This document shows positions 6,276 through 19,439 of a stretch of DNA of 35,090 nt, piece after piece. The notes under the pieces were generated by a model. It saw nothing but the letters and a program-made list of their open reading frames with translations, was not told the origin of the DNA and ran no database searches. A program made the translations under genes and the position numbers. Numbering within the stretch: the stretch's first letter is position 1; each line of letters starts with the position of its first letter. The DNA comes from Clostridiales bacterium (GTDB taxonomy: Bacteria > Bacillota > Clostridia > Oscillospirales > Oscillospiraceae): contig JAJPWY010000046.1 of the NCBI GenBank assembly GCA_021205725.1, forward strand, positions 1 through 35,090, given 5' to 3'.

Positions 6276-7457
6276 TCAGAGGGCCGCCTTTAGCTCCTCC
6301 ACCTTGTCCAGTCGCTCCCAGGGGAGATCCAGGTCGGGACGGCCGAAGTGTCCGTAGGCGGCGGTCTGCCTGTAGATGGGCCGCCGGAGATCCAAGGTGC
6401 GGATGATGGAGGCGGGCCGCAGGTCGAACACCTGCTGCACCAGCTGGGACAGCCGCTCGTCGCTGACCTTGCCGGTGCCGAAGCTGTCCACCAGGACGGA
6501 CACCGGCCGGGCCACGCCGATGGCGTAGGCCAGCTCGATCTGGCAGCGATCCGCCAGTCCTGCGGCCACCAGGTTTTTGGCGGCATACCGGGCCATGTAA
6601 GCGGCGGAGCGATCCACCTTGGTGGGATCCTTGCCGGAGAAGCAGCCGCCGCCGTGGGCCGCTGCGCCACCGTAGGTGTCCACAATGATCTTCCGCCCGG
6701 TGAGGCCGGAGTCGCCCACAGGGCCGCCCACCACGAAGCGGCCGGTGGGGTTGACATAAAATTTTGTCTCCGGCCGGATATACCGCCGGGGCAGGTTTGG
6801 CCGGATGATCTCCTCGATCACCGCCTCCCGCAGGTCTTTGATACTGATATCCGGGTCGTGCTGGGTGGAGACCACGATGGCCGGGCACCACTCCACGTTG
6901 CCGTGCTCGTCATAGGCCACCGTGACCTGGCTCTTTCCGTCGGGACGGAGCCAGGGGAGAGCGCCGCTCCGGCGCTGGGCGGCCAGGGCCCGGGTCAGAT
7001 TGTGGGCCAGGGCCAGAGGGGCGGGCATCAGCTCCTGGGTCTCCCGGCAGGCATAGCCGAACATCATGCCCTGATCCCCTGCTCCGATGCGGTCGGCCTC
7101 GTCCTCCTGGCCACCCTGGGCCTCGTAGGACTGATCCACCCCCATGGCGATGTCGGGGGACTGCTTGTCCAGGGTGGTGAATACGGCGCAGGTCTGGGCG
7201 TCAAAGCCGTACTCCGGTTTGCTGTAGCCGATGTCAGCCACCGTCTTCCGGACGATGGCAGGGATGTCCACCTGGGCCTTGGAGGTAATCTCCCCCATGA
7301 CCAGCACCATACCGGTGGTGGTGGCCGTCTCGCAGGCCACCCGGCTCATGGGATCCTGGGCCAGCATGGCGTCCAGGACGGCGTCCGAGATCTGGTCACA
7401 GACCTTGTCCGGATGCCCCTCGGTGACAGATTCAGAGGTAAAAATACGGTTGCTCAT
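6276..7457 (-). CDS. metK: S-adenosylmethionine synthetase
   Basis: This enzyme converts methionine and ATP to S-adenosylmethionine, phosphate and pyrophosphate in the cytoplasm. The protein is 393 residues, the normal MetK length. Signature motifs are present: [13 protein letters not shown] near the N-terminus, [13 protein letters not shown] in the middle, and [19 protein letters not shown] in the C-terminal third. The ATG at 7457 is chosen because the protein then begins [17 protein letters not shown] as in the family; an AAAGGA lies 11 bases upstream. An in-frame extension further upstream is the riboswitch leader and is not coding. The gene is monocistronic with a consensus promoter, a SAM-I riboswitch with terminator in the leader, and its own 3' terminator. 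Confidence 0.97.
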
Positions 7458-7533
7458 GGTGTTGTGATTCCTTTCTGTGCTGGGGGTATGACACCCCTGT
7501 TTTTTACAACAACACAGCCCCGTGATTGCCTGC

Positions 7534-7564
7534 AAAAAAACTGCGCACCCATGCGGATACGCAG
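7534..7564 (-). terminator. SAM riboswitch expression-platform terminator
   Basis: On the minus transcript a 10-bp stem with two G-U pairs (7564-7555 with 7550-7541) encloses a GCAT loop and is followed by seven T's (7540-7534). It lies directly 3' of the SAM-I aptamer and about 75 bases before metK, so SAM binding should favour termination. Confidence 0.85.
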
Positions 7565-7576
7565 CAGAGAGCACGC

Positions 7577-7692
7577 TGTCCTCATCTTTACGAAAAACCG
7601 CTGGACTTGGCACCTTACCCATCAGCACGTCTGCTGACAGGGCAGGTTGCCGGGCTTCATCGGGCCAATCCCTCCGCCACTCTTGATAAGGC
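7577..7692 (-). promoter_or_regulatory. SAM-I (S-box) riboswitch aptamer
   Basis: Reading from 7692 downwards, the minus strand shows the S-box landmarks in order: CTTATCAAGAGTGGCGGAGG, then TGGCCCGATGAAGCCCGGCA, then AAGGTGCCAAGTCC, then GTAAAGATGAGGACAG. These are the conserved P1 5' strand, the kink-turn/P2 region, the J3/4 GGTGCCAA and the P1 3' strand. It begins about 10 bases after the predicted transcription start. High SAM is expected to switch off metK. Confidence 0.95.
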
Positions 7693-17277: not shown

Positions 17278-17544
17278 TTACTTACGAATGCCCAGCTTGG
17301 CGATGATCGCACGATAGCGCTCAATGTCCTTCTTTGCCAGATAGTCCAGCAGACGGCGGCGCTTACCGACCATTTTCAGCAGACCACGGCGGGAGTGGTT
17401 GTCGTGGGGATGCACCTTCAGGTGCTCGGTGAGCTGCTGAATACGGGTGGTGAGAATGGCGATCTGGACCTCGGGAGAGCCAGTGTCGTTCTCATGGGTG
17501 CGGTTTGCCTCGATGACGGCAGTTTTTTCCTCTTTGCGGATCAT
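17278..17544 (-). CDS. rpsO: 30S ribosomal protein S15
   Basis: This primary 16S rRNA-binding protein is 88 residues, the normal S15 size. Conserved blocks are [36 protein letters not shown] and [13 protein letters not shown]. The ATG at 17544 follows AAGGTGG at eight bases; the in-frame GTG at 17556 overlaps that ribosome binding site and is rejected. It is transcribed with pnp from a promoter 120 bp upstream. Confidence 0.97.
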
Positions 17545-17656
17545 AATGGGTTCCACCTTTTCTGTAAATTCCCGTTGAGCTGAGTGTCAGGCCGGTGAAC
17601 TGGGGACGTCTCTCTCCTGTCTCCTGAGACCAGGCCCACGGGTCTGCGTTACACGC
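17545..17656 (-). promoter_or_regulatory. rpsO 5' leader, possible S15 autoregulatory region
   Basis: The predicted transcript has about 110 untranslated bases before rpsO with several GC-rich self-complementary parts, such as CCTG/CAGG around TCT/AGA. S15 represses its own mRNA by binding leader structures in several phyla. This leader has the right length and place, but I could not match it to a described S15-binding motif. Confidence 0.3.
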
Positions 17657-17662
17657 TTAGTT

Positions 17663-17915: not shown

Positions 17916-17944
17916 TTGAAAAATCCTGAAAAAAGGCTTAAACT
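17916..17944 (+). promoter_or_regulatory. sigma-A promoter of a small RNA
   Basis: TTGAAA (17916-17921) and TAAACT (17939-17944) are spaced by 17 bp. The upstream 30 bp are T-rich. No plus-strand protein gene follows within range; a structured region and terminator follow instead. Confidence 0.65.
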
Positions 17945-17949
17945 ACAAA

Positions 17950-18059
17950 ACAGCAAGAGTTTCTTGCACGGGTTCCGCAGGAGTGGAGCCGGAATGTGTG
18001 AGAGGTTTGCTGCTTTACAAGACGTCTGAGTGCACGGCTCAGGCGTTTTGTATTTTTTT
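17950..18059 (+). ncRNA. candidate structured small RNA (about 110 nt)
   Basis: The segment lies between a sigma-A promoter and a strong terminator (9-bp stem 18022-18030 with 18038-18046, then TTTTGTATTTTTTT). Three nested helices stack in its body: CAGCAA/TTGCTG (17951-17956, 18007-18012), TTCTTGCAC/GTGTGAGAG with G-U pairs (17961-17969, 17996-18004), and GGTTCC/GGAGCC (17971-17976, 17985-17990) closing a loop that shows AGGAGT. A competing local hairpin GCAAGA/TCTTGC (17953-17958, 17962-17967) is also possible. ACAAAAC at 17945-17951 is complementary to GTTTTGT at 18045-18051. The flanking genes both point leftward on the minus strand, so it is not a leader. It does not show the SRP RNA GGAA-loop consensus, and I do not recognise a 6S, tmRNA or RNase P core. 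Confidence 0.6.
18022..18059 (+). terminator. terminator of the small RNA
   Basis: ACGTCTGAG and CTCAGGCGT pair over nine positions (one G-U) around a 7-base loop, followed by TTTTGTATTTTTTT on the plus strand. On the minus strand the following sequence is poor in T, so the element points rightward, though it may weakly end the kinase transcript too. Confidence 0.8.
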
Positions 18060-18068
18060 GCGCTCCGG

Positions 18069-19439
18069 TCAGCTCTCGCTCTCTGTCTCCCCTGCGGGAA
18101 ACAGCAGCCGGATCTCCGTCCCCTGCCCCGGCTGGCTCTCCAGCTGGAGCTGGGCGTTGTGGGCGGCGGCGGCGTGCTTGACGATGGACAGGCCCAGTCC
18201 GGTGCCCCCCACCGCCTTGGAGCGGCTCTTGTCCACCCGGTAGAACCGCTCGAACACCCGGCCCTGGTCCTCCTCCGGGATGCCGATGCCCGTGTCCGCC
18301 ACCGACAGCAGCACCCGGTCTCCCAGGCGGCGCACCGTGACCACCACGCTGCCCCCGTCCCGGTTGTACTTGATGGCGTTGTCGCACAGATTGCTAATCA
18401 CCTCGCCCAGCAGCTCCCGGGAGCCCTGGACTGTTCCATGCTCGCCCTGTAACTCCAGGGCAATCTCCCGGCGCTCCGCCTGGGGCCGGATGCGGCGAAG
18501 GGTCTCCTCACAGAGCGGATACAGGTCTACCGCCGTCTTTTCCATCCCGACCCCCAGATCCTCCACCCGGGACAGCTCCAGGATATCCCCCACCAGGGTC
18601 TGGAGCCGTTGGGCCTCGTCGTAGATCTTGCCGGAAAACTCCTTTACGTTCTCCGGCCGGGCGATGCCCTCGTGGATGATCTCCGCATAGCCGGAGATGG
18701 AGGTCAGGGGGGTTTTCAGCTCGTGGGAGACGTTGGCGGTGAACTCCCGGCGGAGCCGATCCTGCCGCTGGTGCTCCTGATCCAGCAGCTCCATCTGCCG
18801 CTTGATCTGGCGGCTCTGGGCGTTGATACGCCGGGCCAGGGGCCGCAGCTCGGGGTATACCCCGTTCTCGTCCGGGTGCTCCAGGTCGATCTCGTTCACC
18901 GGCCGGGCAATGGTCTCCGCAATGCGCCAGGCCAGCAGAGCGGAGAGCAGCACCGCCAGAGCCACCACCAGCAGCAGAGAGGGCCACATGTCCAGCAGCA
19001 TGCTCAGGATTGTCCACTCCGTCCCGGAGACCCGGAGCACAGTGCCGTCGGACAGGAGCAGGGCGTAATAGGTGGTCTTGGTGGCCAGGGTGTCGGAGTA
19101 GCGTATGCTCCAGCCGCTGCCGCTCTTCCAGGCCTCTGCCACCTCCTCCCGCTGGCTGTGGTTCTCCATGGAGGCGGCGTCCGCCTCGCTGTCATAGAGC
19201 ACTGTACCGTCGGTATCGATCCAGGTGACGCGCTGCTGGGTGGCCTCCCGGTTCACCGTCTCCAGGAAGTCTCCGCCTCCGGTTTCCACAGCGGCCCCCA
19301 GATAGGCGGCCTCCTCCTCCAGACGCTGCTGGTTATATTGGGAGAAATAGTCAAACACCGCCAGCACCGTCACCGAAAGACAGGCCAGCAGCACCACCAT
19401 GGCGCAAATGAAGCTATTCCAAAACAGCTTACGCTTCAT
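18069..19439 (-). CDS. PhoR-like membrane sensor histidine kinase
   Basis: This 456-residue kinase phosphorylates the response regulator encoded just upstream. The first transmembrane helix is at about 8-30, an extracytoplasmic sensor domain at about 31-148, and the second helix at about 149-172. A HAMP-like linker and coiled coil follow. The HisKA H-box is FTANVSHELKTPLTSISGYA. The HATPase domain has the N-box NLCDNAIKYNRDGG, G1 VADTGIGIPEED, the F-box FERFYRVDKSRS, and G2 GGTGLGLSIVKHAA. Domain order matches PhoR/ResE-type kinases. Its start overlaps the response-regulator stop by 11 bases. No pst or phoU genes are nearby, so a phosphate role is not shown. Confidence 0.93.
   Translation of the reverse strand: MKRKLFWNSFICAMVVLLACLSVTVLAVFDYFSQYNQQRLEEEAAYLGAAVETGGGDFLETVNREATQQRVTWIDTDGTVLYDSEADAASMENHSQREEVAEAWKSGSGWSIRYSDTLATKTTYYALLLSDGTVLRVSGTEWTILSMLLDMWPSLLLVVALAVLLSALLAWRIAETIARPVNEIDLEHPDENGVYPELRPLARRINAQSRQIKRQMELLDQEHQRQDRLRREFTANVSHELKTPLTSISGYAEIIHEGIARPENVKEFSGKIYDEAQRLQTLVGDILELSRVEDLGVGMEKTAVDLYPLCEETLRRIRPQAERREIALELQGEHGTVQGSRELLGEVISNLCDNAIKYNRDGGSVVVTVRRLGDRVLLSVADTGIGIPEEDQGRVFERFYRVDKSRSKAVGGTGLGLSIVKHAAAAHNAQLQLESQPGQGTEIRLLFPAGETESES

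Follow-up and report, generated by a model that had tools for sequence, protein, structure and literature searches.

In the window analysed here, a 35,090-nucleotide stretch of a Clostridiales bacterium contig, positions 17916–18059 of the plus strand hold what we regard, with high confidence, as a genuine sRNA gene. It is a lineage-restricted, structured bacterial sRNA that is not catalogued in Rfam 15, and its layout, fold, covarying conservation and independence from neighbouring genes were all established computationally. Inspection of the sequence, a pattern scan and fold prediction agree that a sigma-A-type promoter is followed here by a rod hairpin of 62 nt and then by an intrinsic terminator; the features are as follows.

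17916–17944, plus strand: sigma-A-type promoter, TTGAAA-17-TAAACT (pattern scan)
17916–17921, plus strand: −35 element TTGAAA, followed by a 17-nt spacer
17939–17944, plus strand: −10 element TAAACT
17951–18012, plus strand: rod hairpin made up of P1, P2 and P3, with AG and GGAA bulges (predicted fold)
17951–17957/18006–18012, plus strand: helix P1
17958–17959, plus strand: AG bulge
17960–17970/17995–18005, plus strand: helix P2
17971–17978/17983–17990, plus strand: helix P3
17971–17990, plus strand: apical core, GGY-NN-YGC-ARNN-GYR-NN-RCC, in the window GGUUCCGC AGGA GUGGAGCC
17991–17994, plus strand: GGAA bulge
18016–18059, plus strand: intrinsic terminator with a 16-bp stem, 5-nt loop and T7 (pattern scan)
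18016–18052, plus strand: terminator stem-loop, followed by seven T at 18053–18059
17278–17556, minus strand: rpsO (S15), upstream and divergent from the sRNA (context only)
18069–19439, minus strand: PhoR-like histidine kinase, downstream and convergent (context only)

Organization of the locus and predicted fold

The initial annotation of this DNA had described a plus-strand sigma-A promoter, TTGAAA-17-TAAACT, set between minus-strand neighbours. Sequence inspection and the pattern scan returned this promoter at the same coordinates, and the neighbours in question are rpsO and the PhoR-like kinase gene. Beyond rpsO, likewise upstream of the sRNA and on the minus strand, lies pnp, whilst the downstream neighbours form a minus-strand PhoR/PhoB-like pair, with the stop codon of the kinase gene located 10 nt beyond the end of the sRNA terminator. 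A promoter-like element occurs at the matching place in all aligned relatives, with −35-like sequences of TTGAAA, TTGCAA or TTGTCA and −10-like sequences of TAAACT, TATAAT, TATGAT or TAAAGT. A short ORF is present within the RNA at 17994–18029 (ATG at 17994, stop at 18029, preceded by AGGAG); as its start or stop is missing in relatives (loci L008, L010 and L111–L115), a conserved peptide was rejected.

The predicted RNA has a minimum free energy of −55 kcal/mol, compared with −31 ± 3.2 for shuffled sequences (z = −7.5); none of 200 shuffles folds as well, and the rod hairpin on its own gives z = −4.8. Three stacked helices and a terminator had been proposed, and P1, P2 and P3 do indeed stack in the predicted fold, at coordinates that agree with that proposal. 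The suggestion of an AGGAGT sequence in the loop holds for AGGA (17979–17982), which is looped, but not for the G and T that follow, which are paired. A competing GCAAGA/TCTTGC hairpin, also suggested, is predicted with a probability of zero for the full-length RNA and is not conserved; it is the best fold only for 5′ fragments of ~25–50 nt, and might at most be a transient folding intermediate.

Distribution among relatives

Searching at the DNA level, we identified full-length versions in six of the genus genomes, including that of the window, and a diverged copy in a seventh, whilst other genomes gave terminator-only matches. Upstream of the latter, the same rod was found in different letters. 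A covariance model (R1) recovered one copy each in 28 of the 32 genus genomes (E ≤ 1e-5); two of the remaining four had weak, chance-level matches and two had none. The members split into several subclades.

When the promoter was included in the covariance model (R3), a search of 400 family genomes returned only two members outside the genus, G084 (genus g54, E 7e-12) and G168 (genus g37, E 1e-6), both of which carry the promoter and the core. In G168 the RNA is divergent from rpsO–pnp and lies between these genes and the small membrane-protein ORF described below, with the rod itself followed by a T-rich tail and no separate terminator. With the exception of G084, family-wide matches to models R1 and R2 were ordinary terminators by eye, and these were dropped by R3. 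The sole additional match at the level of the order, in G752, looks like a tRNA gene flanked by a promoter and a terminator; in view of this false positive, E-values near 1e-6 alone were not trusted, and G168 was accepted because of its core and synteny. A second match in G168 (L227) lacks the core and was discarded. When the regions upstream of rpsO were scanned in 30 genomes from 29 genera, only G168 proved to have the core. Among the genomes searched the sRNA is restricted to this family, although remote members may be missed as a result of the stricter filters used in the large searches.

Conservation and covariation

Covariation in related genomes, which had been put forward as a check on the existence of the RNA, was found. 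In five relatives the rod arms are only 33–53 % identical to those of the window, yet pairing is retained. Native arm pairs reach −18.5 kcal/mol, compared with −10.0 ± 3.4 when arms are swapped between lineages, and in 13 of 18 cases the native pair is better than every swap, with L122 a clear exception. Within the core and terminator, 98.3 % of cells are paired, compared with 35–43 % when the columns are slid; seven pairs are changed on both sides; at 0.374, the covariation score exceeds that of shuffled alignments (0.265), none of 500 being as high. For L116, L122 and L125, the rod alone folds no better than shuffles.

The apical core is paired in 100 % of cells (18 sequences), with both-side changes in two of its six pairs, and is present in two further genera as well. 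Its NN positions, two bases per side, are mostly unpaired in the consensus and paired in the window. On the 3′ side a purine bulge near RGAA follows, which is absent from L012 and L124. Among near relatives, the U-A pair at 17974/17987 is replaced by C-G, and in place of the AGGA tetraloop relatives have AAUC, AAGA, AAAA, AGUA or AGCC, the GGA loop being private to the nearest relatives of the window. The conserved parts of the RNA are brief and lie for the most part within helices, loops and bulges, and no conserved unpaired stretch of at least 7 nt, of the kind that would serve an Hfq-dependent antisense sRNA as its seed, was seen across subclades.

In the subclade of the window, conservation of the terminator hairpin exceeds that of the rod, the hairpin's identity to the window in the same five relatives being 81–97 %, and in several relatives the hairpin also outconserves the rpsO coding sequence (73–86 %). 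Eleven genomes share an identical 19-base heart of the stem-loop, including its loop. This heart occurs in a single copy in the window's genome, and a repeated genomic element was accordingly rejected as its explanation. The stem-loop at 18023–18045 and its homologues are frozen, including the loop, and in some carriers the rod arms have almost fully diverged.

Proposed function

We infer transcription of the locus, action in trans, and a partner that is a protein rather than an mRNA. Sigma-A RNA polymerase would start near 17951 and stop at the terminator, yielding a stable RNA of ~109 nt, such that the sRNA gene would correspond to 17951–18059 and its product would act in trans. The basal P1/P2 rod, free in sequence, would provide a stabilizing scaffold, and the core, consisting of an irregular helix, an ARNN tetraloop and a purine 3′ bulge, would be the recognition element. 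This core would most likely be docked by a protein, thereby forming a small ribonucleoprotein or titrating that protein. A stand-alone, trans-acting sRNA with an apical core that is most likely protein-docked is our preferred, albeit tentative, reading, to which we give somewhat less than an even chance. The more specific proposal, that the core is the site of an RNA-binding protein and founds a small ribonucleoprotein family that most of this genus of uncultured Clostridia has kept regardless of gene neighbourhood, is plausible but more doubtful.

As no long single strand is conserved whilst a compact irregular hairpin is kept, protein docking is favoured over antisense pairing, and we consider it slightly more likely. 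Antisense pairing is the commonest known mode of action for bacterial sRNAs, and a trans-acting antisense RNA, in which mRNA leaders are bound through base pairing by the apical loop, the linker or the loop of the terminator, with only a stabilizing role left to the rod, is itself a plausible if doubtful account of this locus. The frozen terminator hairpin in the window's subclade, with its loop identical across 11 genomes and its conservation beyond that of rpsO in several relatives, keeps this option open and hints at a possible additional role for the terminator loop, such as that of an antisense seed. However, both the tetraloop and the terminator loop vary between subclades, and the lack of a conserved unpaired stretch is unfavourable to pairing. 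Furthermore, complementarity to the start regions of rpsO, pnp, phoR and phoB was at chance level for those four genes, which argues against regulation of the neighbours.

Gene neighbourhood

Within the genus, 14 genomes carry the sRNA beside rpsO, as does G168 outside it; in the other genomes of the genus the two are not within 1.5 kb of each other. The downstream gene, named by reading translations, is variously PhoR-like, pseudouridine synthase-like, phosphodiesterase-like, peptidase-like or a small membrane protein. The last of these belongs to a family of 60–110 aa with an N-terminal MxTxYxxTxxF..NVIDFxxYR motif and one C-terminal transmembrane segment (loci L106–L109, L111–L117, L119, L191, L192, L195 and L199), for which no Pfam or NCBIfam family scored above cut-off.

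Beyond the immediate clade of the window, this ORF is convergent to the sRNA in most loci, usually within ~50 nt, and the convergent arrangement is also seen in two other genera. Type I antitoxin RNAs, such as RatA/txpA and SR4/bsrG, likewise converge on their toxin gene, and the RNA could in principle work with the small membrane protein as a type I antitoxin-like antisense regulator. We consider this unlikely. Unlike such antitoxins, the sRNA is predicted to stop short of the ORF, which is itself longer and is also found without the RNA: in L197 and L207 it lies upstream of rpsO with no recognized sRNA. Beside the sRNA of the window and its nearest relatives the ORF is missing (in L122 it is located elsewhere), and in relatives that have it, no consistent complementarity to the start region of the ORF was seen. 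The adjacency would be explained by a terminator region common to both or by ancestral gene order, and given that the ORF is gone in the window clade and occurs without the RNA, we read the arrangement as old gene order and not as a functional pair.

Among members there is no conserved co-directional downstream gene, and the strand of the downstream gene varies too. As both upstream and downstream genes change between relatives, the data point to a stand-alone sRNA and not a leader. A structured RNA ending in a terminator would also be expected if this were a riboswitch or cis-acting leader controlling a plus-strand gene, or nothing more than a terminator; such an identity is nonetheless very improbable, given that the window has no plus-strand gene close downstream, that downstream genes and their strand vary, and that conservation extends beyond the terminator to the promoter and the fold of the rod.

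Relationship to known RNA classes

Having a promoter and a terminator of its own, a covarying fold and no Rfam family, the locus fits its original description as an unannotated, stand-alone, structured small RNA, and the accompanying remarks that it does not match the SRP RNA consensus and shows no recognizable 6S, tmRNA or RNase P signatures were likewise borne out. No Rfam 15 family matches at the locus in the window or in seven relatives; the SRP RNA, RNase P RNA and tmRNA models gave no match there up to E = 10, and ARAGORN found no tmRNA in the window. The 6S RNA model (RF00013) does not match at the sRNA locus, and the true 6S gene is elsewhere in the window's genome (G000:C39:55994-56188). 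The sRNA resembles 6S RNA in being rod-like and stand-alone with its own promoter, but is ~110 rather than ~190 nt in length and lacks a large central open bubble.

Pairing of an exposed GGA with C-rich targets, one of two initial speculations, is not supported, as the motif is private to the nearest relatives. The other, that the GGA attracts CsrA, did not survive: although the window's AGGA tetraloop recalls the GGA hairpin loops of CsrB/RsmZ-type decoys, it is a single motif private to the nearest relatives, several GGA loops kept across relatives were not found, and the CsrA family (PF02599) is present in 0 of 32 genus genomes with positive controls, making a CsrA-sequestering RNA exceedingly improbable.

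Comparative genomics yields lineage-restricted structured RNAs, for example the 104 candidates of one such report (PMC2864571). Like those, the present sRNA was recognized via a conserved fold, with function not known at discovery; unlike them, it lies outside the families of Rfam 15. We found no earlier report of it in the literature. Regulatory RNA is little charted in these uncultured Clostridia, and an sRNA that shows covariation, has a defined core and a traceable synteny history, and occurs in single copy in approximately nine-tenths of a genus could enter Rfam. It could also serve as bait in the search for an RNA-binding protein or a regulon among bacteria without CsrA.

Other RNA elements in the window

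A SAM riboswitch (RF00162, 76 bits) is found at 7579–7692 on the minus strand, ahead of an S-adenosylmethionine synthetase ORF (6276–7628), which is an ordinary arrangement. The rpsO leader (17557–17660, minus strand) has no Rfam match in the window. Comparison of the window with L197, L199, L203, L204, L205, L207 and L208 revealed a nested structure in this leader that is conserved across several genera and comprises 14 pairs, seven of which have changes on both sides; it is perhaps the S15 autoregulatory leader of this lineage.
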